Source: an uncultured Acidobacteriia bacterium
Lineage (GTDB): Bacteria; Acidobacteriota; Terriglobia; Bryobacterales; Bryobacteraceae
Direction of reading: 5' to 3'
DNA: 44,690 nucleotides
NCBI GenBank assembly: GCA_903828455.1
Contig: CAIKMJ010000004.1
Coordinates: 1-44,690, forward strand
In this document: piece by piece, positions 4,726-25,379 of the stretch
Numbering within the stretch: position 1 is the stretch's first letter
Layout: each line of letters starts with the position of its first letter
The notes under the pieces: model-generated
Seen by the model: only the letters and a program-made list of their open reading frames with translations
What the model was told of the DNA's origin: nothing
The model's database searches: none
Translations under genes and position numbers: made by a program

Positions 4726-6858
4726 CTACACAAGATGCAGAACACCCAGCAAACGGTCGATGAGCCAGATGCCGGGGAACGGGGCGACGACGCCGCCGAG
4801 ACCGTAAACCAGCAGATTTCTGCGCAGCAGCGCACCCGCCGACAGAGGCCGGTATTTTACGCCGCGCAGCGCCAGCGGCACGAGCGCGATGATGATCAGC
4901 GCGTTGAAAATGACCGCCGCAAGAATGGCGCTCTCCGGCGTATGGAGCCGCATGATGTTCAACCGGTTCAGCGCCGGATAGGTTACCGCGAACATCGCCG
5001 GAATGATGGCGAAGTACTTGGCTACATCGTTGGCGATGGAGAAGGTGGTCAGGGCGCCGCGCGTAATGAGCAGCTGCTTGCCGATGGCGACGATCTCGAT
5101 GAGCTTGGTGGGATTGCTGTCCAGATCGACCATGTTGCCGGCCTCCTTGGCCGCCATGGTGCCGGTGTTCATGGCGACGCCGACGTCGGCCTGCGCGAGA
5201 GCCGGCGCGTCATTGGTGCCGTCGCCGGTCATGGCGACCAGACGTCCGCCGGCCTGTTCGCGTTTGATGAGATCGAGTTTGTCGCGCGGCGTGGCCTGCG
5301 CGAGAAAGTCGTCCACGCCTGCTTCGGCAGCAATGGCGGCAGCCGTAAGCGGATTGTCGCCGGTAATCATCACGGTGCGGATTCCCATGGTGCGCATCTG
5401 GTTGAAGCGCTCGCGCATGCCACCCTTCACGATGTCCTTGAGATGAATGACGCCGAGTACCCGGGCATCCTCGGAGACGACCAGAGGAGTGCCGCCGGTT
5501 CGTGCGATGGCATCGGCGATATCCGTCACGCTTTGCGGAAACTCGCCGCCCAGCGACGCGATGTGGCGACGGACCGATTCACCCGCGCCTTTGCGAATCT
5601 GCCGCCCTTCGTAATCTATGCCGCTCATGCGCGTTTGCGCGGTGAAGGGAATGAACTCGGCTTCGTGCGAGGCGATCTCGCGGCCGCGGAGTCCGTACTT
5701 TTCCTTCGCGAGGACGACAATGCTGCGCCCTTCCGGCGTTTCGTCGGCGAGGCTGGACAGCTGCGCGGCGTTGGCCAGTTCTCCTTCATGAACGCCGGGC
5801 GCCGGAAGAAATTCCACGGCTTCGCGGTTCCCGAGAGTGATGGTGCCGGTCTTGTCGAGAAGCAGAGTGTTGACGTCGCCGGCCGCCTCCACGGCTTTTC
5901 CGCTCATGGCGAGGACGTTGTGCTGCATCACGCGATCCATGCCGGCGATGCCGATGGCCGAGAGCAGGCCGCCGATCGTCGTCGGGATCAGACAGACGAG
6001 CAGCGAAACGAGAACAATGACGGTGGGCGCAGTGCCGGCTTTGGCCTGATCGACGCTGTAGAGCGCAAACGGCGCGAGTGTAACCACGGCGAGGAGAAAG
6101 ATGAGAGTGAGGCCGGCAATCATGATGTTCAGCGCGATTTCGTTCGGCGTCTTCTGGCGCGCGGCGCCTTCGACGAGCGCGATCATACGATCCAGAAACG
6201 TTTCGCCGGGGTTCGAGGTGATCTGCACTTTGATGTAGTCCGAAAGGACTTTGGTGCCGCCGGTCACCGCGCTGCGGTCGCCGCCGGATTCGCGGATGAC
6301 GGGCGCGCTTTCGCCTGTGATGACGGATTCATCGACGCTGGCGATGCCTTCGATAACGTCGCCGTCGCCCGGGATGATGTCGTTGGGTTCACAGAGGCAG
6401 ATATCACCTTTGCGCAGGGATGAGGCGGGCACGACGTCCACGCGGCCGTCGGCGTCGAGCTTTTTGGCGGTAGAGTCCGTCTTACTTCGGCGGAGGCTGT
6501 CGGCCTGGGCTTTGCCGCGGCCTTCGGCCATGGCTTCGGCAAAATTGGCGAACAGGACAGTGAACCAGAGCCACGCCGCAATCTGGAGCTCAAAACCGAA
6601 CCCGGAACTGCCGGAGATCAGGGTGCGAAGCATGAGGCCGGTCGTGAGAGCGGCGCCGACTTCCACGACGAACATCACGGGGTTCTTCGCCAGTGTGCGG
6701 GGATTCAGCTTGGCGAACGAATCGGTGACGGCGCGGCGGACGATGGGCGGATCGAACAGAGGCCGGGCACGCTGACCGCGGCCCAGTGCCCGGTCGGCCG
6801 CAATAGAGGCCTCGGAGGGCACCGTTTGATTCATCGGATCCTGTACCTGAACAGACAT
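4726..6858 (-). CDS. kdpB: K+-transporting P-type ATPase subunit B
   Basis: This is the catalytic P-type ATPase subunit that drives K+ import by KdpFABC. The 710 residues include the actuator motif ITGES (in [12 protein letters not shown]), the phosphorylation motif DKTGTIT (in [14 protein letters not shown]), and the hinge [20 protein letters not shown]. Membrane helices flank these and include [17 protein letters not shown], the KdpB family helix. All catalytic residues appear intact. A GGGAG-type ribosome site lies shortly before the ATG, and kdpA ends 15 bases upstream. Confidence 0.98.
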
Positions 6859-6873
6859 TGGCTCGTTTCTCCC

Positions 6874-8637
6874 TTACAGCATGAGGTGCTCGACGATCGG
6901 TCCCAGCGAAAGAGCGGGAAAGTACGTCAGAGCGCCGACAATAATCACGACGCCGATCAACAGGCCAACAAAGAGCGGGCCGTGGGTCGGAAACGTTCCG
7001 GCCGAGACGGGCACCTGGCGTTTGGCCGCCAGCGATCCCGCCACGGCGAGCAACGGCAGCAGCATCAGAAAGCGTCCGATCAGCATGGCGAGCCCGAGCG
7101 TGACGTTGTACCAGGGGGTATTGGCATTCAGACCGGCCAAGGCGCTGCCGTTATTACCGGTGGCGCTGGTATACGCATAGAGGATTTCGGAAAGCCCGTG
7201 TGCGCCCGGATTATTGGTGTTGGCAGCCGCCGGGCCGGGCGCATTCCAGTAGCCGCCTTTCACGAACGGAGCGACGGAACTGGCGCCGGCAAAGAGCAGC
7301 ACGCTCGCCGCCAGAACCAGCATGGCGATCATCGCCATCTTCACTTCTTTCTGCTCGATCTTTTTGCCCAGATATTCGGGGGTGCGGCCGACCATCAGGC
7401 CGGAGATGAAAACGGCGAGGATCGCGAACATGAGCATGCCGTAGAGTCCGGCGCCAACGCCGCCAAACACGACTTCTCCCAGTTGGATATTGAACAGCGG
7501 CACCAGCCCGCCGAGCGGCGTAAAACTATCGTGCATGGCGTTGACGGCGCCGCAGCTGGCATCGGTGGTTGCGGTGGCGAAAAGCGCCGAGTTGGCGATG
7601 CCGAAGCGCGTTTCCTTGCCTTCCATGTTGCCGCCACTTTGCGCAGCGTCGGCCTGCATCGCGATACCGGCTTTGGCCAGCATCGGAGTCCCTTTCTGTT
7701 CGAAATAGTAAGCGGTCACCACGCCGCCCAGCCACAGCACGGTCATGGCCGCGAAGAGTGCCCAGCCCTGCCTCGTATCGCGAACCATTTTGCCGAATGT
7801 GTAAGTCAGCGCCGCGGGAATCAGGAAGATCAGGAACATCTCGATCAGGTTGCTGAAGGGAGTTGGATTTTCGAAAGGATGCGCCGAATTCGCATTGAAG
7901 AAACCACCGCCGTTGGTCCCGAGCATTTTGATGGCTTCCTGCGACGCTACCGGCCCCTGGGCGATAACCTGCTTCACGCCTTCGAGCGTTGTGACGGTCG
8001 TATAGGCACTCAGGTTCTGGATGACGCCCTGCGAGCAGAGAACTAAAGCTGCGATGACGGAAGCAGGCAACAGAACGTAGAGCGTCGCGCGCGTCAGATC
8101 GGCCCAGAAGTTACCGATTGTTTTGACCGACTGGCGGGCGAAGCCGCGCACCAGCGCCACGGCAATGCCGAGGCCGGCCGCGGCCGACAGGAAGTTATGC
8201 ACCGTGAGACCGGCCATCTGCACGAAGTAACTCAGGGTCTGTTCGGGCACGTAGCTTTGCCAGTTGGTGTTCGTCGTAAAACTAACGGAGGTATTAAAAG
8301 CGAGGTCCGGACTCACATTGTTCTGACTAAACGCCTGTGGATTAAAAGGCAGCCACGCCTGCATGCGCTGCATGGCGTAGAGGAGCACGGCGCTGAAGCC
8401 GCTGAAGGCGAGCAAAGCCGCCGAGTAACGTGTCCAGGTCTGTTCCTCGGGCTGTCCTTCGGCATCCAGCCGGACGCCGCAAACGCGGTAGGTGAGGCGT
8501 TCGAGAGGGCCGAGCAGCGGACTCAGGAACGTTCTTTTGCCCTCCATCACAGAGGCGATGAATACGCCGAGCGGCTTCGTGCACGCAAGAATCAGCGCGA
8601 AGAACAGGGCAATCTGCAGCCAGCCATTAGCAGTCAT
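6874..8637 (-). CDS. kdpA: K+-transporting ATPase subunit A (selectivity channel)
   Basis: KdpA is the channel-like K+-selective subunit of KdpFABC. The 587-residue protein has about ten hydrophobic segments. Its four pore-loop regions are visible as [49 protein letters not shown] and [11 protein letters not shown]-like (here [17 protein letters not shown]). The conserved [16 protein letters not shown] segment is also present. It starts 29 bases after the kdpF stop. Confidence 0.98.
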
Positions 8638-8665
8638 GATCTAAACTCCGTCGGAAATGAGCCGG

Positions 8666-8749
8666 TCAAAATTTTTCGGGATGCAGCAGCGCATAGAGGA
8701 GATAAATGCCGAGCGCCGCCGAAATCAATCCCGCCACAAGGTATTCCAT
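8666..8749 (-). CDS. kdpF: K+-transporting ATPase subunit F (27 residues)
   Basis: Reading the minus strand from ATG 8749 gives a 27-residue peptide starting MEYLVAGLISAALGIYLLYA and ending HPEKF. This is a single hydrophobic helix with the KdpF pattern: a short N-terminus, one membrane span, and a basic C-terminus of the type PEKF. KdpF stabilises the KdpABC complex. A GAGGAG-like ribosome site (TTTGAGGAGATTCGCG) precedes the start. It lies 12 bases after the preceding small gene and just ahead of kdpA, the standard place for kdpF. Confidence 0.9.
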   Translation of the reverse strand: MEYLVAGLISAALGIYLLYALLHPEKF

Positions 8750-8760
8750 CGCGAATCTCC

Positions 8761-8844
8761 TCAAAGCCTTTCGCAGGCGAGCACCAGTTTCCAGGCCACC
8801 ACGAAGAAGGCAGCAATCGCGAGGCTGTAAATGATGTCAGGCAT
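8761..8844 (-). CDS. 27-residue single-span membrane peptide of the kdp operon
   Basis: ATG 8844 opens a 27-codon frame starting MPDIIYSLAIAAFFVVAWKL and ending VLACERL. It has one membrane helix with an acidic start and a Cys-Glu-Arg-Leu tail. A strong GGGAG site lies 8 bases upstream, and the start overlaps the end of the Usp-like gene (stop at 8837). I recall similar short peptides ending in CERL or CDRL before kdpF in other genomes, but not an assigned function. It could be a second KdpF-like stabiliser. Start, ribosome site and tight packing between two real genes make it convincing despite its size. Confidence 0.7.
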   Translation of the reverse strand: MPDIIYSLAIAAFFVVAWKLVLACERL

Positions 8845-9289
8845 TCGAATCTCCCTCATAAAACAGCACTGTGCGGTATCCGGCGCGCTGCAGCGCCGCG
8901 GCGAGACGTTCGGTCCGGGTGCGCCACCAGCGTTTTTTCGACGCAAGGACGACGACGGAATCCGGACGCAGCGCGCTCGACAAACCACTGTGCATCTCTC
9001 TTGCCAGACGAACTTCAGCACGAATCGGCAACGTGGAGCGAAAGCCTTCCAGTTGCCCGCGCAGGAAGCTCAAAGGAATCAGCGGGTGATTCAGGTCGCA
9101 GGGAAATGGCACGACCTGGACGCGCACCAGCCGCAGGGCGGCGCGCAGACCATGCGCCATTGTGCTTGCCGCCGCGACCGCCGCACGGGTCATGGCCGGA
9201 TCGGTAAACGGCACGACAAGATCAAGTTCAGATTCGGCGGCCGCAAGCCGCGGCACTGCCGGAAGTGGTGTTTGTGTTAAGTGTTTCAC
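8837..9289 (-). CDS. Usp-like protein encoded before kdpF
   Basis: This is a 150-residue cytoplasmic protein with a possible GTG start at 9289. It begins KHLTQTPLPAV, has a central LDLVVPFTDPAMTRAAVAAAS stretch, then a beta-alpha segment (ALRLVRVQVVPFP). It ends SVVVLASKKRWWRTRTERLAAAL and an ill-defined acidic tail. The alternation of beta strands with amphipathic helices resembles the universal-stress-protein fold seen at the C-terminus of KdpD. No Walker or Usp ATP-binding G-2x-G-9x-G(S/T) motif is evident. The start is uncertain because a hairpin lies directly against the GTG and no clear ribosome site is seen. Its position at the head of the structural kdp genes suggests a role in K+ sensing or assembly (inference). 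Confidence 0.65.
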   Translation of the reverse strand: MKHLTQTPLPAVPRLAAAESELDLVVPFTDPAMTRAAVAAASTMAHGLRAALRLVRVQVVPFPCDLNHPLIPLSFLRGQLEGFRSTLPIRAEVRLAREMHSGLSSALRPDSVVVLASKKRWWRTRTERLAAALQRAGYRTVLFYEGDSNA

Positions 9290-9290
9290 A

Positions 9291-9323
9291 GGTTGTCACC
9301 CATCCGAAGGGTAGGCGACAACC
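9291..9323 (-). promoter_or_regulatory. hairpin immediately upstream of the kdp structural genes
   Basis: GGTTGTC (9291-9297) pairs with GACAACC (9317-9323), and inside it ACCC (9298-9301) pairs with GGGT (9309-9312), leaving a 7-base loop and a 4-base bulge. In the minus-strand transcript the stem ends one base before the GTG at 9289, where a ribosome would bind. It could be a leader structure controlling translation, a weak attenuator, or part of an operator. Confidence 0.45.
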
Positions 9324-9327
9324 CGTT

Positions 9328-9355
9328 AAAAGTTCATAAGAAGTCTGTCAGAAGT
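9328..9355 (-). promoter_or_regulatory. three direct repeats with 11-bp period, candidate KdpE binding site
   Basis: On the minus strand the hexamers ACTTCT, ACTTCT and ACTTTT occur at exact 11-bp spacing (plus-strand positions 9350-9355, 9339-9344, 9328-9333). OmpR/PhoB-family regulators such as KdpE bind direct repeats phased at about one helical turn. The site fills the 66-bp gap between the kdpE stop and the first structural gene, where a kdp promoter is expected. Confidence 0.55.
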
Positions 9356-10057
9356 TTATTCGGCCGCCGCGAGGCCGGCGAACCGATATCCGACCCAGGG
9401 CTCTGTCAGCAGATATTTTGGTCTGGAGGGCACAGGTTCGATCTTCTTGCGCAATTGATTGACGAAGACGCGCAGGTATTCCACTTCGTCGCCATAATCC
9501 GGGCCCCAGACGGTCTGCAGAAGCTTGCGATGAGGGATAGGCTTATCGGGGTGGCTGACGAGGAAGTGCAGAAGATCGAATTCCTTGGGAGTCAGGCGCA
9601 CGCTGCGGCCTTTGAGAGTGACTCGGCGGGCGGCGAAATCGATTTCGAGTTCTCCGTCGGCAAACCGCCGCGGGCCGCTGTCGCCCAGGGCTGGCGTGCG
9701 CCGCATTGCGGCCCGGATGCGGGCCAGCAGTTCCTGAATGCCGAAGGGCTTGGTGACGTAGTCGTCTGCGCCGGCGTCGAGAGCCTGCACTTTTTCGCGC
9801 TCGGCATTGCGAACGGAGAGGATGATGATCGGGACGTCGGAAGTTTCGCGAATCGCGCGGCAGGTTTCGAGGCCGCCGATTCCCGGCATGTTCAGATCGA
9901 GCAGCACGAGGTCGGGCGGTTCCTGACGGATGGAGGCGAGCGCCTCTTCGCCGGTTTTGGCCTCGATGACGGAGTAGCCGAGGTCGGTGAGCGTGGCTTT
10001 CATCGCGCGGCGAAGCTGCGGCTCGTCGTCCACCACCAGAATCGTCGCGTTAATCAT
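9356..10057 (-). CDS. kdpE: KDP operon response regulator
   Basis: This is a 233-residue OmpR/PhoB-family regulator. The receiver domain (1-120) has the acidic pair D10-D11, phospho-acceptor D54 (in LVLLDLNMPG) and the switch Lys in DYVTKPF. The C-terminal winged helix (about 130-228) contains LTPKEFDLLHFLVSHPDKPIPH and EVEYLRVFVNQLRKKIEP, the recognition-helix region typical of KdpE. It overlaps the histidine-kinase gene by 8 bases, so the two are co-expressed. It probably acts on the repeats right after its own stop codon. Confidence 0.95.
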   Translation of the reverse strand: MINATILVVDDEPQLRRAMKATLTDLGYSVIEAKTGEEALASIRQEPPDLVLLDLNMPGIGGLETCRAIRETSDVPIIILSVRNAEREKVQALDAGADDYVTKPFGIQELLARIRAAMRRTPALGDSGPRRFADGELEIDFAARRVTLKGRSVRLTPKEFDLLHFLVSHPDKPIPHRKLLQTVWGPDYGDEVEYLRVFVNQLRKKIEPVPSRPKYLLTEPWVGYRFAGLAAAE

Positions 10058-11489
10058 GCAGTTCCTGCGTGAGCGGCAACGTAATGGAAATCACCGCGCC
10101 GCCCTGCGGGCCGTTCGATGCCCGGATTCGCCCTCCGTGAGCTTCGATGATACCCCGGGCGATCGCCAGCCCCATGCCGGTTCCCTCCGTCTTTGCTTTG
10201 ACGCGCCGGCCGCGGTAAAACTTTTCGAACACGCGTTCCAGTTCGTCTTTGCCAATGCCCGGGCCGTGATCGGCAATTGTGATGATGAGCTGCGCATCCT
10301 GCGCGGAGGCGGCAATTTCGATCGGCGAATCCGGGGGTGCATATTTCTGCGCGTTCTCAAGAATCTGCAAGAGAGCCCGGCGGATGAGGTCTCCATCGGC
10401 GCAGAAGCGGAGGTCGGCGGGAACACTGACGATGAATCGCTGCGGATTCTCTTCCCGGGATTGCGCGAGCGCCATGCCGATGAGGTCGGCCACGCTGGCA
10501 TCCTCGCGGTGGAGCTTCAGTTCGCGCGATTCGATGCGCGCCAGTTCGACGGCCTCCGTAATGGACTGCTCTAGGCGGCGGGACTCCTGATCCACGATGC
10601 TGAGCAGTTCGCGGCGGACTTCCTCGCTGCGGGGCGGGATGTCGATGAGTCGGGTGACGCAGGAGCGAATCGCGGTCAAAGGGGTCTTGAGGTCATGGGC
10701 AAGACCATCAAGCAGAGAGGACTTGAACTCCTCATTGCGTCTGGCCGCTTCGGCTTCGGCGGCGCGGTCGAGAGCCCGCACTCTTTCGTAGTTGATGGCC
10801 AGCAGGCCGGCCAGTGAATCGAGCAAGGCCGGAGTGAGCGACGGGCCGCTCGCCGCCAGAGCGCCAACTACACTGGCGCCGAGCCGGACCGGCATCATGG
10901 AATAACGCTCCAGGGAGGCCGGTTCGCCACTGCTCGCAATGTGAGCAAGATCATCGGGGGTGATGCCCGAATCGCCGGTCGAGCCGTACATCTGTCCGGC
11001 GGCCACATCATAGAAGGCCACCGATTCGAGTTCCAGGATCTGGCACGCGCTGGTGACGGACTGCGCCAGAGCATTGCGTGCTTCATCCATCAGCATGGCG
11101 CGGCTCAGTTCGTACAATTTGCCCATTTGCCGCCGCCCGCCTTCGGCTTCCTCCGCGCGCTTTCTCGCCTGCGAAGAGAGCTGGCTGGAGGTAACGGCCG
11201 TGAGCAAAAAGGCGGCGAGCGCAATCCAGTTTTCCGGATCGGCAATGGTCAGGGTGCCGATCGGCGGGAGAAAATAGAAGTTGAAACCCAGCATCGCAAT
11301 TACCGAAGTGGCAATCGCTTCGCTGAGTCCCCACCTTGTCGCGACCGCGAGTACCACGAGCAGCAGAACAAGAGCCGCCGTTGTGGCGTTCACGTGCGCG
11401 AGCCGGAAGCAGACAAATATAACGCCGCCAACAGCCGCCAGACAAAAGGCGTAACGCGCTGGCTTTGAATATGCGCTCACTGGGTTCAA
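10050..11489 (-). CDS. kdpD: histidine kinase equal to the C-terminal part of KdpD (DUF4118-GAF-HisKA-HATPase)
   Basis: The 479-residue membrane kinase has a four-helix DUF4118 region (about 12-105) and a GAF-like segment (about 125-235). The dimerisation domain follows with H-box DGLAHDLKTPL (H265), then an ATPase domain with N-box ILENAQKYA, G1 DHGPGIG and G2 GTGMGLAIA. It starts where a full KdpD would begin its transmembrane part. The N-terminal KdpD sensor domain is missing and instead exists as two separate genes at 1933-4117. It pairs with the overlapping kdpE. The start at 11489 is TTG; a GTG nine bases further in is equally possible. Confidence 0.9.
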   Translation of the reverse strand: MNPVSAYSKPARYAFCLAAVGGVIFVCFRLAHVNATTAALVLLLVVLAVATRWGLSEAIATSVIAMLGFNFYFLPPIGTLTIADPENWIALAAFLLTAVTSSQLSSQARKRAEEAEGGRRQMGKLYELSRAMLMDEARNALAQSVTSACQILELESVAFYDVAAGQMYGSTGDSGITPDDLAHIASSGEPASLERYSMMPVRLGASVVGALAASGPSLTPALLDSLAGLLAINYERVRALDRAAEAEAARRNEEFKSSLLDGLAHDLKTPLTAIRSCVTRLIDIPPRSEEVRRELLSIVDQESRRLEQSITEAVELARIESRELKLHREDASVADLIGMALAQSREENPQRFIVSVPADLRFCADGDLIRRALLQILENAQKYAPPDSPIEIAASAQDAQLIITIADHGPGIGKDELERVFEKFYRGRRVKAKTEGTGMGLAIARGIIEAHGGRIRASNGPQGGAVISITLPLTQELHD

Positions 11490-15926: not shown

Positions 15927-16526
15927 TTACCGATGGCCGCGTCCGACCAGGGAGAGGAACTCGTTCCGGGTCGCATTGTCTTCCCGGAACGCGCCCACCA
16001 TAGCACTCGTCACCGTGGTGGATTGCTGTTTTTCCACGCCGCGCATCATCATGCAGAAATGGCTTGCCTCGCACATCACGGCCACGCCGCGAGGCTGAAT
16101 CGCATCGGAAATTGCATCAGCCACTTCCTGGGTCAGCCGCTCCTGCACCTGCAGCCGGCGAGCGTACATATTTACGATTCGCGGAATCTTGCTCAGCCCG
16201 ATCACCTTGTTCGTCGGCAGATAGGCCACATGCATCCTGCCGTGAAACGGGAGCAGATGATGTTCGCAGAGACTGAAGAACTCAATGTCCTTTACCAGCA
16301 CCATCTCGTCGACTTTGACCGCGAACAACGCACCATTGACCAGGTCTTCCACCCGAGTGTGATACCCGCTCGTCAGGAAGCGCATTGCCTTCTCCCAGCG
16401 CTCGGGCGTTCGCTTCAACCCGTCGCGTGACGGATCTTCCCCGACGAGGGCCAGCACCTCCTCCATGTGAGAGGCAATTCCGGTCGCTTGCGGGGAGATC
16501 ACTTTGACAGCCGCCGACCGTCTCAA
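15927..16526 (-). CDS. folE: GTP cyclohydrolase I
   Basis: FolE converts GTP to dihydroneopterin triphosphate, the first step to folate and other pterins. The 199-residue protein has the zinc/active-site segment [22 protein letters not shown], then [14 protein letters not shown] and [18 protein letters not shown] with the second Cys and catalytic His. All key residues are present. The predicted start is TTG 16526 overlapping the DinB stop, with GGGGTGAGG just upstream; a GTG at 16502 is an alternative. A folE gene inside CarH/LitR clusters is usually explained by folate or deazaflavin-type antenna supply for photolyases. No photolyase gene is in this window. Confidence 0.93.
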
Positions 16527-17386: not shown

Positions 17387-18490
17387 TTAGCTCGAGGCAA
17401 GCTCAAGCGGCGCCTGCGCTTTCTCGAACAGGTAGTGTGAAACGATCCATTCGGCGCCGTCCCGATAGCCCCACAGTTCGGCGCAGGCCATGAAAAAGAT
17501 GCGCCAGCGTACGAACCACTTCAATGCCTCATTCCTGCCATAAACGCCCGAAAACAACTTCAGCAACGCATCCCGGCATTGGTCCATGTTGACGAGCCAG
17601 GCTTCGGCGGTCTTCTGGTAATGTTGGCCGTTCACCACCCAGTGATTGCGAATCCTGACGTCGCTCTGGAAATACAGCAGCAGGTCGTCGCTGGGCATCT
17701 GGCCGCCGGTGAAAAAGTGCTGCGCCATCCAGTCCCCTGCATCACGGACTTCGAAGAGGTACGCGAGTCGATGGTGAGTGAATATGTGGATGAACAACAG
17801 GCCCTCCGGATCCATCCAGGAGGAAACTTTGTTTAGCAGGCGCTGATAGTTCCGCACGTGCTCCATCATTTCGACCGACACGATGCGGTCGAAACGCTGG
17901 CCCGCTTCAAAAGCGTTGATGTCGGCGGTGACGATGCGAAGATTTGTGAGGCCACGCTCGCGAGCCTGCGTTTCGATGTACTGGCGTTGAGAGTGCGAGT
18001 TGGACAGGCCTGTGATCTGACTGTTCGGGAAGCGGGCGGCGGCGTACAGCGAGAACGCGCCCCATCCGCACCCGAGATCGAGGATGGAATGTCCGTCTTC
18101 GATTTGCGCTCGCGTCGCTGTGAGGTCGAGCATACGGCGCTCGGCGGCATCGAGCGTGTCCCCGGCTTGCCAGTAACAGCAACTGTACTTGCGGTGGCTT
18201 CCCAGAACGGAGCCAAAGAAATCCGCCGGAATTTCGTAATGCTGCTGATTCGCCCTGGGCGCATGGATGGCGATCGGACTCGCATTCAATTGCGCGACGT
18301 AGCTCATGAAATGAGCCTGCTGCTTTTCCGGATCGCCCTTCTCCTCATCGCGGAGGCGCTGCGCAAGGAGACGCCTGATCCCGGCTCGCAGGATACTATC
18401 GGGCACAAGATCTCTTTCGACCAAAGCTTCGTACCAGGCGGCCTTCGGTTGCCCGGTGCTTTGTTCGGCTGTAAGTGCAGAGGCTTCCAC
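17387..18490 (-). CDS. CFA-synthase/CNMT-like SAM-dependent methyltransferase
   Basis: The 367-residue protein belongs to the cyclopropane-fatty-acid-synthase superfamily, in the branch resembling coclaurine N-methyltransferase. [10 protein letters not shown] is the acyl/phospholipid-side motif, [13 protein letters not shown] is the SAM-binding glycine loop, and [12 protein letters not shown] is the acidic loop. The start is GTG 18490, overlapping the TAG of the DUF1295 gene by one base with CAGGAG upstream. It is the fourth gene from carH on the minus strand, and a second, different CFA-like gene is on the other arm. It probably methylates an unsaturated lipid or related substrate (inference). 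Confidence 0.85.
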
Positions 18491-19293
18491 TATGTCTTCT
18501 CCTGCGGAATTGCCTTCGGAAACCACGGCGCGAAGGCACTGGTGGTCCGTTGGTAGCGACGGTATTCTTCGCCTCGCGTGCGGATGGCCTGTGCTTCGGT
18601 GGCCGGGATACCCGTTACGCGAAGCACGAAATACAAGATGAGAGCGGGCGAGAGCAGCCCCCAGAATCCACCCGGGGAAGCGACGGCAAACGACGCGTAC
18701 GCTACCCAGATCAGCCATTCGAAGAAATAGTTCGGGTGGCGTGAGTATCGCCATAATCCCGTTTGGCAGGTGCGGCCTTTATTTGAGGGGCTGGATTTAA
18801 ACTTATTGAGTTGTCCGTCGGCAATGGCTTCTCCCGCCATCGCCAGAGTCCAGAGACCCGCGGATGCCCATTCGATCCAGGAAACCCTGGGTTCCGGGTT
18901 GCACGATGCCGTCAGAAATGGCACCGCGAGCACCACACACAGCAACGCCTGGAATTCGTAGAACAAAAGAAACTTGAACGGGATGTTGGTCTTCCACTGG
19001 CGTCGCAGTTCCTGGTAGCGCCCCTCCTCCGGGTGCCCGATGATGCGGGTCGTGAGGAGGTAAATGGCCAGCCGCAGTCCCCAAATTGCGGACATCGTGC
19101 CAATCAGCGCGGAGCGGAGCCAGTATCCGCCGCCCGATACAGCGTAAAGCACTCCCAGCAGAGCCAGTCCTCCGGCCCAACCAGCGTCGACAATTGCCGC
19201 GTTGCCGGTTCGCAAATGAATCAACCACAGCAGCAGCATTAGCAGCGCTACGCTCGCCGCACCGATGAGCACCAGAGTGAGACCGTGATTCAT
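18490..19293 (-). CDS. DUF1295 membrane oxidoreductase (steroid 5-alpha-reductase-like)
   Basis: This is a 267-residue protein with about seven hydrophobic segments. The C-terminal motif [21 protein letters not shown] and the ending [19 protein letters not shown] are hallmarks of the DUF1295/ICMT-like group, which binds NADPH and reduces isoprenoid, steroid or acyl double bonds. ATG 19293 overlaps the previous stop (ATGA). DUF1295 genes repeatedly occur with CFA-like methyltransferases and DUF1365 in light-controlled clusters. I infer reduction of a methylene or enoyl intermediate on a lipid. Confidence 0.85.
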
Positions 19294-19616
19294 CGCAGAA
19301 GCAGCGCCTCCACGGATTGGTCCGGTCTCAGACGGAAGAGCCGGATCAGGACGTAGCACGACATTGCGATATTGCCCAGGCCAAGGATCAGCACCAGCCA
19401 CAGCAGACGCGACCAGAAGGTGTTTTCTTTGTAAGCCACCCATACCCAGAAGGTGATGAAGCCGAAATAGGCGTCGTAAAGCGTGGCGACCGCCCACGGA
19501 TTGGCGGCAAACGAATCCCACGCGCTCCAAAGGCTGACCGCCAGACTGGTACGGATGGTGAGCACGGTCATCCACAGGAAGATCGCCCCGAACAGAAGCT
19601 TGAGCGCCGTTTTCAT
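19290..19616 (-). CDS. DUF1475-family small membrane protein
   Basis: The 108-residue protein has three predicted membrane helices (LKLLFGAIFLWMTVLTI, VATLYDAYFGFITFWVWVAY, LLWLVLILGLGNIAMSCYVL). The YDAYFGFITFW segment matches what I recall of DUF1475. Function is unknown. It lies 3 bases after the carH stop and overlaps the DUF1295 start, so it is an accessory of that enzyme. Confidence 0.75.
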   Translation of the reverse strand: MKTALKLLFGAIFLWMTVLTIRTSLAVSLWSAWDSFAANPWAVATLYDAYFGFITFWVWVAYKENTFWSRLLWLVLILGLGNIAMSCYVLIRLFRLRPDQSVEALLLR

Positions 19617-19619
19617 CAG

Positions 19620-20513
19620 TCAGTTTCTCCAGCGGCGGCATTCGCTTTCGAGCGCCGGAAGATCCTTTATCCAGACAGTTTTACGGCCCAGGCCGGAAAG
19701 ATCGAGACTGGCACTGCCCGCGCCGCCGACCCACAATTCGGCGGCCTCCGGCATGGCTGCGGCAAGAGCCCTCAACTCTGCCTGCGTCGTATCGAGCACG
19801 AATGTGATGCTCAGAGCCACCACCTTCGCGGATGTGATGCGGGCCGCATCCGCAATCTCGCGCGCCGGAAGGTTTGGACCGAGGTAAACCGGTTCCACTC
19901 CAGCCAGGGAAGCCAGCATCGCAGCGGAAAGCATACCGAACTCGTGCGATTCGCCGGCAGGCGTGGCGAGAACCATCTTTATCGCCGGGTTGGAAGGCCG
20001 GAACAGGCGCGTCATATTTCCCAGCAGGGTGCGCAGCATCTGCGAAAGCAGGTGTTCCTGTGCAATGGCCAGTGTCCCTTTGTGCCAGCGGATTCCCACT
20101 TCGCGCATGAGCGGAATGGCAACATCATAGACCAGATCGCGGGGGCTGAGAACGGCCGCCAGTCGGCTCAATTCGTCGCTGGCGCGAACCGTGTCGAAAT
20201 TCATGATCGCCGTGAGAACGGGGGCCAGAATGTCCGTCTGCGATGCCGGCGCAGCGACTGCGTGGTCAGACTGCCGGCTCAGAAGCCCCCGAAGTTCTTC
20301 GTCGGACCGCTCCGCAATCCCGCCGATCGCGTGCCCTTTTTGCACTAACTGGTTCAGCAACAGCAGTCGCTCGACGTGCTCCGGGCCATATTGGCGCCCC
20401 CGGTCGGAACGCTCCGGGACCACTGCCTTGTAACGGCGCTCCCAGGCTCGCAGCGTGTCCAGGCTAAGCCCTGTGATTTTCGCCACGGCTCGAATTGGGT
20501 AACGGGTGTCCAT
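19620..20513 (-). CDS. carH: MerR-family adenosylcobalamin photoreceptor-repressor (CarH/LitR type)
   Basis: The 297-residue protein has an N-terminal MerR winged helix (1-70: YPIRAVAKITGLSLDTLRAWERRY). A helical domain (about 95-170) follows, then a B12-binding Rossmann domain (about 178-290). Key light-sensing residues are present. They are the W-x9-EH motif (W143, E153, H154) that caps the adenosyl group, His after the Trp (H144, equivalent to the light-state ligand of Thermus CarH), and the lower cobalt ligand H190 in GESHEFG. The 46-residue spacing of H144 to H190 is as in known CarH. In the dark such proteins bind AdoB12, tetramerise and block promoters; light breaks the Co-C bond and releases DNA. 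It starts at ATG 20513, only a few bases after its predicted transcription start. Confidence 0.9.
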   Translation of the reverse strand: MDTRYPIRAVAKITGLSLDTLRAWERRYKAVVPERSDRGRQYGPEHVERLLLLNQLVQKGHAIGGIAERSDEELRGLLSRQSDHAVAAPASQTDILAPVLTAIMNFDTVRASDELSRLAAVLSPRDLVYDVAIPLMREVGIRWHKGTLAIAQEHLLSQMLRTLLGNMTRLFRPSNPAIKMVLATPAGESHEFGMLSAAMLASLAGVEPVYLGPNLPAREIADAARITSAKVVALSITFVLDTTQAELRALAAAMPEAAELWVGGAGSASLDLSGLGRKTVWIKDLPALESECRRWRN

Positions 20514-20522
20514 CCGTTCACC

Positions 20523-20551
20523 ACTATAAACAGAGGCGTGCCTTTTGTCAA
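20523..20551 (-). promoter_or_regulatory. predicted carH promoter
   Basis: On the minus strand there is a perfect -35 TTGACA (20551-20546), a 17-bp spacer and -10 TATAGT (20528-20523). Transcription would begin near 20516, three bases before the carH ATG, so the mRNA would be almost leaderless. The -35 lies inside the left arm of the palindrome, so bound CarH would block polymerase. Confidence 0.7.
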
Positions 20552-20581
20552 TCGTATGTCATGGACAAATGATTGACAAAA
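20543..20581. promoter_or_regulatory. 39-bp palindromic CarH operator
   Basis: Outer arms TTTTGTCAATC (20543-20553) and GATTGACAAAA (20571-20581) are perfect inverted repeats. Centred on the same base (20562) is an inner pair TGTC/GACA (20557-20560 and 20564-20567). The element has four TGTC/GACA half-sites in symmetric order, which suits a tetrameric MerR-type repressor. It lies midway between carH and the desaturase. Confidence 0.75.
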
Positions 20582-20601
20582 CACCAAGAGTCGGATACAA
20601 A
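20573..20601 (+). promoter_or_regulatory. predicted promoter of the desaturase operon
   Basis: It has -35 TTGACA (20573-20578, perfect) in the right arm of the palindrome, a 17-bp spacer, and -10 TACAAA (20596-20601, 4 of 6). The predicted start is near 20608, which is the first base of the GTG start codon, so a leaderless mRNA is likely. Confidence 0.6.
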
Positions 20602-20607
20602 TAAAGG

Positions 20608-21450
20608 GTGGCTGTGCGTGCGCGTAACGGGCGGTACCAATTCGGGGCGGTTTTCTTCTTCCTGTTGCTCCATGCCGGAATATTGGCCGTCTGGTGGACC
20701 CCGCCTACACTTTCCCTTCTGGCTTGGCTCGCCGGCACCTACTCGATCCGGATGTTCGGCGTTACGGCGGGCTATCACCGGTACTTCGGGCACCGAAGTT
20801 ACAAACTTGGCCGCACTGCCCAGTTTGTAATGGCCTTCCTGGCGCAGAGTTCAGCGCAAAAGGGAGTTTTGTGGTGGGCGGCCCATCATCGCCTGCATCA
20901 TCGGGAGTCGGATCGGGATAAAGATGTCCATTCACCCACCATGCGCGGTTTTTGGTGGGCGCACGTCGGTTGGGTGCTCTCCAATGAGTTCGACGAATAC
21001 GATCCGCGCTCGGTGGCTGAGTTTCTGGGGTTTCCGGAAATCCGCTGGCTGGACCGGCACCACTGGATTCCAACCGTGGTCTTTGGCGCTGGCATAGCCT
21101 GGATCGGCGGATGGCCGGTGTTCCTGTGGGGCTACGTGGTATCCACGGTGGTCTTGTACCACTGCACGTTCGCAATTAATTCGCTGGCACACTTGTGGGG
21201 CACTCGCCGCTTCGATACTCCCGATGAGAGCCGCAATAACTGGTGTCTGGCCCTGATCACGCTGGGCGAAGGGTGGCACAACAACCATCACCACTCACCC
21301 GGAAGCTGTCGCCAGGGGGAGCGCTGGTGGGAAGTCGACATTACCTATATGGTGCTGCGGGCAATGAGTTGGGCCGGCATCGCCCGCGATCTGCGCCCCT
21401 TCCGCAAGGCGGAGTGGCGCCCCCCTGTTGCTCGCGTGGCACAGTCATGA
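20608..21450 (+). CDS. membrane fatty-acid (acyl) desaturase
   Basis: This is a 280-residue diiron desaturase of the delta-9 acyl type. The three histidine boxes are HRYFGH (57-62), HHRLHH (93-98) and HNNHHH (224-229). Hydrophobic segments before and between them would form the four membrane helices. It would introduce a cis double bond into an acyl chain, the substrate of a downstream methyltransferase. GTG 20608 coincides with the predicted transcription start and there is no ribosome site, in line with leaderless translation; a GTG at 20614 is an alternative. The next gene overlaps its stop (ATGA). Confidence 0.92.
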   Translation: MAVRARNGRYQFGAVFFFLLLHAGILAVWWTPPTLSLLAWLAGTYSIRMFGVTAGYHRYFGHRSYKLGRTAQFVMAFLAQSSAQKGVLWWAAHHRLHHRESDRDKDVHSPTMRGFWWAHVGWVLSNEFDEYDPRSVAEFLGFPEIRWLDRHHWIPTVVFGAGIAWIGGWPVFLWGYVVSTVVLYHCTFAINSLAHLWGTRRFDTPDESRNNWCLALITLGEGWHNNHHHSPGSCRQGERWWEVDITYMVLRAMSWAGIARDLRPFRKAEWRPPVARVAQS

Positions 21451-22694
21451 AGCGCATCGCGGTGATCGGCTCGGGAATCTCCGGTTTATCGGCCGCATAC
21501 TATCTGAGCCGACGCCACGAAGTACATGTGTTCGAACGGGACAATCGACTGGGAGGCCATACGCACACCGTATTGGCCGAGTCCGCGAGCGGTCCGGTCC
21601 CGGTGGACACGGGTTTTATCGTTCATAACGATCGCACTTATCCAAACTTCTGCCGGTTGATGGCGGAACTGGGCGTTGAAACGCAGCCGAGCGATATGTC
21701 GTTCGCCGTCACAGAGCCCGGCGGGGCCTTTGAATATTCCAGCCGGGGCCTCAGCGGATTTTTTGCGCAGAAGAGCAACTGGTTTTCCGTCCAACACTAC
21801 ACTTTGCTTCGCGAGATCCTGCGCTTCAATCGCGAAGCTCCGAAGATTCTCAACGATCCGGAAGCTGAAGAAATGACGCTCGGCGAGTTTCTTGAAGCGG
21901 GCGGTTATTCCCCGGTCTTCGTGGATCGCTACCTGATTCCGATGGCGGGCGCGGTCTGGTCCATGGCCCCGGAAGTCATGCCGATGTTTCCGGCCCGGAC
22001 GCTGGTTCGCTTCATGCAAAACCACGGCATGCTGGGAATCAATACGCACCCCCGATGGAAGGTGATCCGGGGCGGGAGCCATTCCTACATAGCTCCACTG
22101 ACCGCACGATTCCGCAATCGGATTACCGCGGAAGCCAGCATCGCTTCGATCGAACGTTCGGATCTCGGAGTGACGTTGCAATTCCGGGACCGGCCAGCGC
22201 TGCAATTCGACGAAGTCGTGTTCGCGTGCCACGGGGACCAGATTCTGCCATTGCTCGCGCAGCCAACCGACACGGAGCGCAATGTCCTCAGCGGCTTCAC
22301 CACTTCCCGCAACGAGACGTGCCTGCACACCGATTCGGCTTTGCTGCCGCGACGGGCGGCGGCCCGGGCGTCGTGGAATTATCTGTTAGGCGATCGCGGC
22401 AAAGTGACGGTCACATATCACATGAACCGGCTGCAGTCCCTCAGGACGGCGGAAGATTTCTGCGTGACACTGAATGCGAATACAGCCGTGGATCCGGGCC
22501 GCGTGCTGCGCAAAATGGTCTATGAACATCCGCTTTTCACAAAGGCGGCGATTCGCGCACAGGATCGGTGGCCGGAAATCAGCGGAAAGAATCATACGCA
22601 TTACTGCGGCGCGTACTGGTTTTACGGCTTCCACGAGGACGGCGTGCGGAGCGGCATGCGGGTGGCTGAAGCCCTGGGGGTTTCCTGCGTATGA
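21447..22694 (+). CDS. FAD-dependent amine-oxidase-like oxidoreductase
   Basis: This is a 415-residue flavoprotein. The N-terminus KRIAVIGSGISGLSAAYYL is a dinucleotide-binding GxGxxG loop, with VHVFERDNRLGGHTHT completing the FAD site. PVDTGFIVHNDRTYPNF is typical of this NAD/FAD-binding family found beside DUF1365 and CFA-like genes. ATG 21447 is set by overlap with the desaturase stop and by the glycine-loop position. In the Rhodobacter furan-fatty-acid system a related flavoprotein gene neighbours the CFA-like methyltransferase and takes part in desaturating a methylated acyl chain. A similar role here is inference. Confidence 0.88.
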   Translation: MKRIAVIGSGISGLSAAYYLSRRHEVHVFERDNRLGGHTHTVLAESASGPVPVDTGFIVHNDRTYPNFCRLMAELGVETQPSDMSFAVTEPGGAFEYSSRGLSGFFAQKSNWFSVQHYTLLREILRFNREAPKILNDPEAEEMTLGEFLEAGGYSPVFVDRYLIPMAGAVWSMAPEVMPMFPARTLVRFMQNHGMLGINTHPRWKVIRGGSHSYIAPLTARFRNRITAEASIASIERSDLGVTLQFRDRPALQFDEVVFACHGDQILPLLAQPTDTERNVLSGFTTSRNETCLHTDSALLPRRAAARASWNYLLGDRGKVTVTYHMNRLQSLRTAEDFCVTLNANTAVDPGRVLRKMVYEHPLFTKAAIRAQDRWPEISGKNHTHYCGAYWFYGFHEDGVRSGMRVAEALGVSCV

Positions 22695-23521
22695 TTCCCG
22701 AACCCGGCCTCTACACGGGCACGCTGCGTCACCGCCGCTTCCGCCCGCGCAGGCATGACTTTACTTACACACTCTTCATGGCGTGGCTGGATATCGACCG
22801 GATTCCTGAATTGATGGCACAGTCGCCATTTACCAGCTACAACCGCTTTAACTGGGCGAGTTTTGACGAAAGGGATCACTTTGGCGATCCCCGGATCTCT
22901 CTGCGCGCGCGTGTGGCACAGGATGCCCGCGCCCACGGAGTGCCCTTGCCGGATGGTCCGATTTTTCTGCTGACCCACCTGCGTTATCTGGGTTATTGCT
23001 TCAATCCGATATCGTTCTTCTTCTGCTACGACCAGGGAGGGCAGCTCGATACCGTCCTTGCTGAAGTCAACAGCACGTTCGGAGAGAGCCGCAATTACTG
23101 GCTGTGGCCGCGAAACCGGCAATCCCCGGCAAACGCGCCGGACCGGCCATCCGCTGCGCCTGCGCTGCACTTTCGCTGTCCGAAGGCACTGCATGTGTCA
23201 CCGTTCATGGAAATGAACCTGGATTACGAATTCGTGCTCACCGAACCGGGCGAGAAGCTGGTGGCTCACATGAACACCCAGGAGTCCGGCCCGGTACCGG
23301 CATCCCCGCAGCCTCTGCTTGATGCGACGCTCGCGCTCGAACGCGAACCCTGGACGGCACGAAGTCTCGGCCGTGTCCTGTTGCGCCATCCGTGGATGAC
23401 CGCCAAGGTTATCGGCGCGATCCATTGGCAGGCGCTTCTTCTTTTCCTGAAGCGAGTCCCGGTGTATACCCATCCGGCCCGAGTGCGGCCGCTGGCTCAG
23501 GAGGCAACGAAACGAACATGA
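22691..23521 (+). CDS. DUF1365-family protein
   Basis: The 276-residue protein has DUF1365 landmarks: ETGLYTGTLRHRRFRPRRHDFTY-like start (here PGLYTGTLRHRRFRPRRHDF), FLLTHLRYLGYCFNPISFFFC, AEVNSTFGESRNYWL and HVSPFMEMNLDYEF. The strongly conserved HRRF, CFNP and STFGE clusters suggest an enzyme, but no reaction is established. It overlaps both neighbours by 4 bases. DUF1365 is almost always found between an FAD oxidoreductase and a CFA-like methyltransferase, as here. Confidence 0.92.
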   Translation: MIPEPGLYTGTLRHRRFRPRRHDFTYTLFMAWLDIDRIPELMAQSPFTSYNRFNWASFDERDHFGDPRISLRARVAQDARAHGVPLPDGPIFLLTHLRYLGYCFNPISFFFCYDQGGQLDTVLAEVNSTFGESRNYWLWPRNRQSPANAPDRPSAAPALHFRCPKALHVSPFMEMNLDYEFVLTEPGEKLVAHMNTQESGPVPASPQPLLDATLALEREPWTARSLGRVLLRHPWMTAKVIGAIHWQALLLFLKRVPVYTHPARVRPLAQEATKRT

Positions 23522-24840
23522 GCATTAGTTTTGCGCAAAAAGCTGTCTTCCGCATGCTGGAGAACATCCGTCACGGCGAACTCGAGGTGATCTGCCCGGC
23601 TGCCGGATCGCAAAAAGCCCGGACCTACCTCTTTGGCGAAGCGGGCACGGGCTTGCGGGCCTCGATCGCCGTGCACAACGAGCGTTTCTTTTCCCGAGTG
23701 CTCTGGGGTGGAGACGATGCCGCGGGAGATGCCTACATGGACGGCGACTGGTCTTCACCGGACCCGGTCTCCGTAGTCCGCCTGGCTGCCCGAAATCTAT
23801 CCGAACTGGAAGGCGGAAACCCTGTTCTCTCTTTCGCCAACCGCCTCTTCCAACGGTTGCGGCATCGAATGAATCGCAATACCGTCGCAGGCAGCCGCCG
23901 CAATATACAGGCGCACTATGATTTGAGCAACGATTTCTTTCGCCTGTTCCTTGATCGCAACATGGTGTATTCGAGCGCTGTCTACCGGCACGCCGGCGAT
24001 TCGCTCGAAGAAGCACAGATCGAAAAGCTCGACCGGATCTGCCGCAAATTGCGTCTGGGACCGGACGACCACGTCCTCGAAATCGGTACCGGCTGGGGTG
24101 CCTTTGCGCTGCACGCTTCGCGAAACTACGGCTGCCGGGTCACTACCACCACCATAAGCCGCGAGCAGCATGATGAGGCCCGGCGGCTATTCGCCGGTGC
24201 CGGAGAAGCAGGAGCCCGGATCAATCTGCTGATGGAGGACTATCGGAATTTGCGGGGCTCGTTCAACAAGCTGGTAAGCATTGAGATGTTCGAAGCGGTT
24301 GGCCTGGACTACTACGATGCGTTCTTCTCAGCCTGCGACCGACTGCTGACCCCGGACGGTTCCATGGTGATGCAGGCCATTACGATGAACGAACACCGGT
24401 TCGATGCTTACCGGAAGCAGAGCGACTGGATTCAGCGGCGCATTTTCCCGGGCGCACAATTGGCCTCGATTCGGGAGATTCTCAACTCCCTGGTGCGTTC
24501 GACGCGGCTCTCCCTGTTCAACATTGAAGACATTGGGCTGCACTACGCCTACACATTGGAGGAGTGGCGCCGGAGATTTCACGAATCGATCGGGGCAGTT
24601 CGCGCCCTGGGCTTCGACGAAGCATTCTGCCGGATGTGGGACTACTATCTGGCCTATTGCGAAGGCGCCTTCCGCGAGCGCCACATCAGCGACGTGCAGT
24701 TGATGCTCACAAAGAACGCCAATCCTGCAATTCTCTGCGGAGAGCCATGGGTATATGCGGAGGAAAGCGAAGTGCCGGCCACGCCCGAGCTGACCCCGGG
24801 CCATCTGGAAATGAGCCATCCGTCCAGGGTTGGCGTGTGA
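23518..24840 (+). CDS. CFA-synthase-family SAM-dependent fatty-acid methyltransferase
   Basis: This is a 440-residue member of the cyclopropane-fatty-acid-synthase family. The N-terminal accessory domain (1-120) includes FFSRVLWGGDDAAGDAYMDG. The catalytic domain has IQAHYDLSNDFFRLFLD (about 130-146), the SAM loop VLEIGTGWGAFAL (186-198), VSIEMFEAVGLDYY and VMQAITMNEHRFDAYR with the active-site Glu/His region. It would transfer a methylene or methyl group to a double bond of a phospholipid acyl chain. It is coupled to DUF1365 (ATGA) and to the next gene (GTGA). Whether the product is cyclopropane, methyl-branched or a furan precursor cannot be decided from sequence. Confidence 0.9.
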   Translation: MSISFAQKAVFRMLENIRHGELEVICPAAGSQKARTYLFGEAGTGLRASIAVHNERFFSRVLWGGDDAAGDAYMDGDWSSPDPVSVVRLAARNLSELEGGNPVLSFANRLFQRLRHRMNRNTVAGSRRNIQAHYDLSNDFFRLFLDRNMVYSSAVYRHAGDSLEEAQIEKLDRICRKLRLGPDDHVLEIGTGWGAFALHASRNYGCRVTTTTISREQHDEARRLFAGAGEAGARINLLMEDYRNLRGSFNKLVSIEMFEAVGLDYYDAFFSACDRLLTPDGSMVMQAITMNEHRFDAYRKQSDWIQRRIFPGAQLASIREILNSLVRSTRLSLFNIEDIGLHYAYTLEEWRRRFHESIGAVRALGFDEAFCRMWDYYLAYCEGAFRERHISDVQLMLTKNANPAILCGEPWVYAEESEVPATPELTPGHLEMSHPSRVGV

Positions 24841-25379
24841 TTCGCCGCATCTTGTACATTGCGCTGTTGACTGCTATGGCCTCTTTATCATCTTCAGCGA
24901 GTGATTTGACGGTCGGCGGGAAGATGCCCGAACTTAGAGCAGAGTACCTCAGCGGGCGAAAGGCACTTTTGCCAGGTGACGCAACTGGACGCGTGGCCCT
25001 GCTGCTGTTCGGCTTCACCTATCAATCACGATTCGCGGTGGAAGCCTGGACGAAACGTTTTCGCGAAGATTTCGGGAACACCCCTCGGGTCACCTTCTAC
25101 GAAATTCCGATGATCGGAGGCTTCGCTCGCATGGGGAAATGGTTCATCGATAGCGGCATGCGGCGTGGAACTCCAAAAGCAGATCACGAAAACGTGATCA
25201 CGGTTTACGGCGCTACAGAACCGTGGAAGCAGCGGCTTGGAGTCACCGCAGAGGACTCTGCATATTTGGTTTTGGTCGACCAGACGGGTAAGATCGCCTC
25301 GCGTCACGCAGGGCCGTTCGATGAAGCGTCTTATCAGGCACTGGCTGCACAAGTTCGCGCACGGCTCTCTACCGAATAA
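24837..25379 (+). CDS. secreted thioredoxin-fold protein without cysteines (ATP10-like)
   Basis: The GTG start overlaps the CFA stop. The 180-residue product has a signal peptide (IRRILYIALLTAMASLSSSA, cut after SSA). It then has a thioredoxin-like fold: VALLLFGFTYQSRFAVEAW, VTFYEIPMIGGFARMGKWFI, VITVYG and SAYLVLVDQTGKIASRHAGPF. It contains no Cys, so it cannot be a redox thioredoxin. The layout resembles the ATP10 family of assembly factors. It is the last gene of the desaturase operon. Function is unknown. Confidence 0.75.
   Translation: MIRRILYIALLTAMASLSSSASDLTVGGKMPELRAEYLSGRKALLPGDATGRVALLLFGFTYQSRFAVEAWTKRFREDFGNTPRVTFYEIPMIGGFARMGKWFIDSGMRRGTPKADHENVITVYGATEPWKQRLGVTAEDSAYLVLVDQTGKIASRHAGPFDEASYQALAAQVRARLSTE

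Follow-up and report, generated by a model that had tools for sequence, protein, structure and literature searches.

The 94-bp gap between carH and the oppositely oriented fatty acid desaturase gene of an uncultured Acidobacteriia bacterium (Bryobacteraceae) contains a 39-bp near-palindrome, probably the operator for the B12-type CarH repressor encoded next to it. The element is best read as a CarH operator in dyad form: two tandem TnnACA pairs run outwards from a common central A:T pair, and CarH bound to them would block both promoters in the dark and release them in the light. It lies in the window, that is, the whole stretch of 44,690 nt that was analysed (contig CAIKMJ010000004.1 of assembly GCA_903828455.1). 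Coordinates are given in Table 1.

Table 1. Position of the element, its parts and the neighbouring genes in the window.
Feature	Position	Strand	Basis or remark
39-bp near-palindrome, proposed dyad CarH operator	20543..20581	none	16/18 arm pairs; conserved beside carH
Conserved 33-bp core TGTCAA-N5-TGTC-N3-GACA-N5-TTGACA	20546-20578		20 fixed bases
Dyad centre, base T	20562	none	common to both inner half-sites
Inner half-site TGGACA, full TnnACA	20562..20567	+	11 bp before outer half-site
Outer half-site TTGACA, candidate -35 box of the lipid operon	20573..20578	+	
Inner half-site ATGACA	20557..20562	-	3/4 consensus bases
Outer half-site TTGACA, candidate -35 box of carH	20546..20551	-	
Candidate carH -10 box TATAGT	20523..20528	-	17-bp spacer
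Candidate operon -10 box TACAAA, weak	20596..20601	+	17-bp spacer
carH, MerR-type DNA-binding and B12-binding domains	19620..20513	-	Pfam profiles; ATG 20513
Fatty acid desaturase	20608..21450	+	PF00487; start GTG 20608 or GTG 20614
FAD-dependent amine-oxidase-like, likely UfaD homologue	21447..22694	+	PF01593; family type and gene order
DUF1365 protein, likely UfaO (furan-forming oxygenase) homologue	22691..23521	+	PF07103, E 3e-78
Cyclopropane-synthase-type methyltransferase, possible UfaM	23512..24840	+	PF02353, E 9e-81; family type and gene order
DUF1475 protein, downstream of carH	19290..19616	-	PF07343
DUF1295 protein	18490..19290	-	PF06966; longest ORF begins further upstream, at 19641
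Second cyclopropane-synthase-type methyltransferase	17387..18754	-	PF02353
FolE, GTP cyclohydrolase I	15927..16526	-	TIGR00063, above cut-off

Anatomy of the element and its predicted promoters

The arms of the near-palindrome (20543-20560 and 20564-20581) are 18 nt each, pair at 16 of 18 positions (89% complementary) and are separated by 3 nt. The outer arm sequences, TTTTGTCAATC and GATTGACAAAA, and the inner pair TGTC/GACA have one centre, at 20562, so that coordinates and symmetry are as originally predicted. The prediction was equally accurate in placing a TTGACA in each outer arm, at 17 bp from TATAGT on the minus strand and from TACAAA on the plus strand, and in letting the element overlap both -35 boxes, which are only 21 bp apart. 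On each strand, two TnnACA half-sites at 11-bp spacing run outwards from one common base and overlap the -35 box, as half-sites do in classical CarH operators. The at least three full repeats on one strand that make up a classical tandem operator are not found in the window element, and all three of its full half-sites lack the additional A that the consensus derived from Thermus, nAnnTnnACAn, contains (PMC8156234). A Thermus-like third tandem repeat on one strand was rejected, since none of the 36 exact sites carried a full one in registers -33, -22, -11, +22 or +33 of either strand.

Because the two inner half-sites have the central base in common, they cannot both match TnnACA in full: a central T completes the plus-strand one, a central A the minus-strand one, and a G or C neither. 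The central base was A or T in all 36 exact sites and in all 59 non-redundant sites with up to two mismatches; as the search pattern dictates the remaining half-site bases, the statement that each element has three full half-sites reduces to this finding. A preference for A/T in DNA bending would also explain the A/T centre. The full inner half-site pointed away from carH in 28 of 36 oriented sites, a polarity that is suggestive only, given that the sites are related to each other.

Conservation also extended to bases that the search had left free, namely the A/T centre and the carH-side TAnnnT at 17 bp, and this was counted in favour of a CarH operator. When sites were aligned by their centres, the T, A and T of the carH-side -10 box were each present in 29 of 36 sites, at a spacer of exactly 17 bp; on the operon side, T34 was present in 23 and A35 in 26 of the 36. 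Among those of the 59 sites that had a recognisable motif (43 for carH, 20 for UfaD), TAnnnT was found in 33 of 43 on the carH side and in only 2 of 20 on the UfaD side, where TA alone occurred in 10. The promoters are thus mirror images, as had been claimed, in that both -35 boxes lie in the arms, but neither the -10 boxes nor the polarised centre are symmetrical.

Transcription starts about 7 nt after the -10 box, which puts the predicted starts at ~20516 on the carH side and ~20608 on the desaturase side, in agreement with the original placement 3 bases before the carH ATG and on the desaturase GTG. The ATG at 20513 is the sole in-frame start listed for carH before the helix-turn-helix, and TATAGT is centred ~12 bp before it with no Shine-Dalgarno sequence, which corresponds to the TA-led leaderless pattern (TANNNT ~10-12 bp before the start). 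For the desaturase, the alternative to GTG 20608 is GTG 20614, which is preceded by AAAGGG. Across the motif-bearing sites, the last possible start codon was located 46-51 nt from the centre in 27 of 43 carH and 12 of 20 UfaD sites, at 52-61 nt in 8 and 3, beyond 61 nt in 4 and 5, and below 46 nt in 4 carH sites. Eight of the 14 desaturase loci had a possible start at 46-52 nt; no start was found in this interval in the other six (L032, L034, L037, L052, L056, L058). Pairing with the anti-Shine-Dalgarno sequence at or below -4 kcal/mol was detected for 3 of 27 close carH starts and 2 of 12 close UfaD starts, as against 5 of 12 and 4 of 8 far starts; the internal genes of these loci showed it in 21 of 23 cases. 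If transcription begins at about +46, predicted leaders of the close-start class would be 0-5 nt, and very short leaders without a Shine-Dalgarno signal are possible at 27 of 43 carH and 12 of 20 UfaD sites. The proposed near-leaderless transcripts on both sides therefore hold in part: the 17-bp spacer and a very short leader recur on the carH side, but the distance is short in only 27/43 carH, 12/20 UfaD and 8/14 desaturase cases.

Conservation and co-occurrence with carH

The exact core was searched in a one-genome-per-species collection of 257 Gb (257 billion bases) and was found at 35 places, as compared with ~0.2 expected at equal base frequencies. Gene content of these loci, scored with the window's own 13 proteins as queries, revealed a carH homologue inside the fetched stretch in 31 of 35; in the other four (L038, L048, L061, L064) the element adjoins FAO-DUF1365-CFA lipid genes, and the L064 site is that of G173:C167, where carH, broken by Ns, is at the edge of the stretch. 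The divergent side held a desaturase or FAO gene in 31 of 35 loci and other genes in L046, L050, L060 and L065, that is, in L046 and the three Gemmatimonadota loci. In L046 (2689-5209), the element precedes genes that by eye resemble an epimerase/cyclase fusion and a ferrochelatase, perhaps indicating light-controlled haem synthesis. The records were labelled as Acidobacteriota, or as a group within it, in 28 of 35 cases; the other seven labels were Gemmatimonadetes (3), Acidimicrobiia (2), Opitutaceae (1) and Betaproteobacteria (1). The element sequences of the two Acidimicrobiia records (L033, L047) equal those of G382:C94 and G411:C4, whose genomes are placed in the phylum of the window; these two labels look wrong, and bin labels in general are unsafe.

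The symmetry and spacing of the 35 exact loci were imposed by the search pattern. Since this pattern selects for symmetry, a CarH-first search was also run, and only the CarH-first sets are free of the constraint. In this search, 35 of 56 loci had the core with at most three mismatches within 600 bp upstream, whereas the best of 1120 mononucleotide shuffles had five mismatches. The 56 loci comprise 28 from the family sample and 28 from the phylum sample, the latter given for 30 of 47 matching places, with the 17 others outside the set. Two of the CarHs classed as neither dyad nor tandem (L102, L104) lie ~1.7 and 2.3 kb from their own genome's element, beyond the scanned stretch.

The original prediction had also proposed looking for the element upstream of carH in related genomes, and the result bore it out. 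In the sample of 200 genomes of the family, CarH (E 1e-20) was present in 29 and the core (up to two mismatches) in 24, all of them CarH-positive, with none among the 171 CarH-negative genomes. The five CarH-positive genomes without the core were three with remote homologues (G010, G029, G115), one with a perfect tandem triple (G015) and one with a degenerate site (G058). In the phylum sample of 396 genomes, CarH (E 1e-35) was present in 42 and the core in 14, again all CarH-positive, with none in the backwards control; the core was not found at up to two mismatches in 28 of the 42, three of which (G250, G433, G465) have a version with three. Sites with three mismatches in G055, G082, G141 and G179 were set aside as chance occurrences, given that these genomes are CarH-negative, that none of the 13 window genes was present and that the rate was no higher than that of the backwards control (7 of 200 family genomes at up to three mismatches). 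In the genome of the window itself, the core is unique at up to three mismatches.

Where carH is ~2 kb away or absent from the stretch (L124, L130, L131, L135), the element still precedes a UfaD-like gene. Two or three copies of the element were observed in some genomes (L130, L053 and L098 in G570; L129 and L135 in G397), some of them before a UfaD-like gene away from carH, from which it follows that the regulon can be scattered.

The CarH regulator and the layout of CarH operators

The product of carH has the MerR-domain plus B12-binding_2/B12-binding architecture of CarH and class I LitR proteins, and is the sole match in its own genome at E 1e-3. PF13411 and PF02607 scored above their cut-offs and PF02310 (30.5 bits) just below its cut-off of 32.1. 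Residues 5-287 align with the Thermus CarH/LitR structures 3whp and 5c8d, and W143, E153, H154 and H190 are retained, at the positions of the residues that contact cobalamin in Thermus (W-x9-EH plus the axial His). From the domains, the alignment and the retained residues, the protein should be a B12 light sensor. The score against the NCBIfam CarH equivalog NF052513 was 114 bits, below the cut-off of 400, and the window CarH is a relative of this curated equivalog, not a member.

The DNA-binding wing (RG-RQY in the window carH) is mostly one residue shorter in dyad CarHs than in the Thermus type: the short form was found in 49 of 53 dyad CarHs, 1 of 8 tandem CarHs and 5 of 12 others. The dyad label is clustered on the CarH tree (7 changes against a shuffled mean of 17.6); of 84 CarH rows, 11 were dropped as identical in their first 200 residues, and rows shorter than this, or with a match that began beyond residue 8, had been excluded earlier. 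The short wing as the cause of the dyad layout was ruled out as a claim by four dyad CarHs with a long wing (L050, L060, L065, L120) and by the shared ancestry in the tree.

CarH repeats are described as nnnnTnnACAn, in tandem at 11 bp and overlapping a promoter box, three in Thermus and four in Bacillus (PMC9304148, PMC8156234). The match of the window half-sites to the TnnACA of this repeat (PMC9304148) was counted in favour of a CarH operator. With the operators of Thermus thermophilus and Bacillus megaterium the element thus has in common the 11-bp TnnACA repeats over a promoter box and a CarH with B12 domains, and with that of Thermus also the three full repeats; it differs in that its repeats form two opposed tandem pairs with a common central base pair, where the described operators have three or four tandem repeats (PMC9304148, PMC8156234). 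The earlier term CarH-type palindrome was apt in that the half-sites fit TnnACA and the element goes with carH, but described operators are tandem direct repeats, not palindromes (PMC8156234, PMC9304148).

In Sorangium cellulosum, CarH sites lie between crtI-carH and crtE-crtD, and one site is proposed to serve overlapping divergent promoters, with carH among the light-regulated genes, as in the window; there, however, the repeats are tandem and the genes are carotenoid genes (PMC9304148, section 10). The CarA operator of Myxococcus xanthus resembles the element in being described with inverted repeats, one over the -35 box, but it is ~55 bp long, is also read as direct repeats, serves one promoter and does not need B12 (PMC9304148, PMC8156234). 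The dyad layout was not found among the CarH operators described in the open-licence literature searched, among the matches listed and in the parts of those papers available. The arrangement had been called unusual, which holds for the palindromic layout as compared with described sites, but leaderless genes were predicted earlier in Acidobacteria (PMC3160421) and a divergent CarH site was proposed in Sorangium (PMC9304148).

Distant CarHs of the same phylum (L111, L114, L115, L029, L030) are accompanied by perfect tandem triples, with none of 40 shuffles each as good, and no dyad at three mismatches was found in these five loci; tandem and dyad layouts exist side by side in the phylum. Three of the remote CarH-like proteins (L028, L029, L030; 31-34% identity) are from the same bacterial family as the window, and L028 has a tandem triple with one mismatch. 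A dyad plus a third tandem repeat on one strand was perfect in L105 (G411) and had one mismatch in L094, L015, L024 and L106, which possibly are intermediates between the two layouts.

The architecture of the element could also be that of two independent classical CarH operators placed back to back, each with its own dimer or tetramer, the symmetry reflecting two similar divergent promoters. Each strand indeed has an 11-bp tandem pair with its outer member as the -35 box, like classical sites, the CarH of Cystobacter occupies overlapping sites as a pair of dimers (PMC9304148), and the loci with a third tandem repeat are in line with this. The A/T identity of the base common to the inner half-sites in 59 of 59 sites, which is expected of one unit, and the fit of 35 of 56 CarH-first loci to one fixed spacing argue against it, and we consider two separate operators rather unlikely. 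It is improbable that the element serves a different regulator, be it a classical MerR-type dimer or some unrelated repressor, and lies near carH by coincidence. MerR proteins normally bind pseudo-palindromes (PMC8156234) and the loci were screened for the window's own 13 proteins only, but the presence of the element tracks CarH across genomes and its half-sites fit TnnACA.

When the window was shuffled with its dinucleotides kept, 7 of 200 shuffles gave a palindrome of this quality somewhere (18-nt arms, at least 16 pairs, loop 0-12). By itself the palindrome is only modestly surprising within 44.7 kb, and from the window alone a chance palindrome around two ordinary TTGACA boxes would be conceivable. 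It is the comparative evidence of conservation and co-occurrence with carH that speaks against chance: with 35 exact places in 257 Gb, the content of these loci, the co-occurrence with CarH in the family and phylum samples and 59 non-redundant sites, this explanation was rejected, and its probability is close to nil. The inverted repeat could also suggest an RNA hairpin or a bidirectional terminator, which was likewise rejected as very improbable, since the arms are AT-rich and contain the -35 boxes, a conserved -10 box lies 17 bp away and the element is outside both predicted transcripts. For the operator of CarH in dyad form, the preferred reading, the points counted against were the NF052513 score, the missing extra A, the 28 of 42 CarH-positive phylum genomes without the element at up to two mismatches, the weak operon-side -10 box, the starts that are not close, the symmetry imposed on the 35 exact loci by the search, and the different divergent genes in L046 and the three Gemmatimonadota loci.

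Predicted light control of lipid genes

The operon that diverges from carH has the same gene order as the UfaD-UfaO-UfaM genes of R. palustris (RPA2571, 2570 and 2569), and UfaO contains DUF1365 (PMC7380195). This domain and the order together make furan fatty acid synthesis the likely product of the operon. A DinB-like gene is also among those grouped with carH. For the protein encoded at 24690-25379, Pfam and NCBIfam gave no match at the thresholds applied; it is found again in several loci that carry the element (e.g., L032, L035, L037, L044). Further away on the minus strand (4726-11489), E1-E2 ATPase, KdpA and DUF4118 sensor kinase genes form a potassium-transport cluster unrelated to the element.

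In the proposed mechanism, each outer half-site would double as the -35 box of a promoter whose transcripts begin on the start codon or only a few bases from it. CarH loaded with adenosylcobalamin would be bound to the element in the dark, probably as a tetramer that contacts three full half-sites and perhaps also the degenerate fourth, and would keep RNA polymerase off both promoters. Cleavage of the cofactor by light would release CarH, which would turn on carH with the co-oriented lipid and pterin genes, and also the divergent desaturase-UfaD-UfaO-UfaM-like operon, whose product is probably furan (or otherwise methylated) fatty acids acting against photo-oxidative damage. With carH itself light-induced, repression could return fast in darkness, and once CarH has left, two polymerases may compete at the closely spaced -35 boxes. 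We give an even chance to a wider proposal: that Acidobacteriota, and records that carry the labels of several other phyla, have a class of dyad CarH operators not described before, where a single tetramer would sit on inverted pairs, the central A:T would set the side with the third full half-site, both transcripts would be leaderless, and furan fatty acid synthesis would be under direct B12 light control.

Other bacteria regulate related genes differently. In Pseudomonas putida, UfaM and FolE are light-induced through class II LitR (PMC9758184); for the Pseudomonas proteins PplR1 and PmlR2, FAD oxidoreductase and short-chain dehydrogenase genes in the region are a further likeness, whereas the site is T(G/A)TACA-N12-TGTA(C/T)A, the partner is a LOV protein instead of B12, and P6650 has its start site 48 bp before the ATG (PMC9758184). 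The furan fatty acid genes of Rhodobacter belong to the singlet-oxygen response of RpoE-ChrR (ECF11), but under sigma factor/anti-sigma control (PMC6852236, PMC7380195); these furan genes respond to singlet oxygen (PMC6852236).

The element raises the question of how a CarH tetramer could bind an inverted site, when described CarH sites are tandem. It allows a direct test, as it has the half-sites of the tandem operators arranged in the opposite geometry, and tandem-type relatives to compare it with exist within the phylum. CarH is a model B12 photoreceptor and an optogenetic tool, and the element is predicted to offer a compact, natural and bidirectional light switch. It would connect a lipid pathway, run via a sigma factor or LOV/LitR in other bacteria, with light sensing by B12, and the occurrence of the same pathway under different controls suggests that one photoprotective module may have been rewired to different light sensors.
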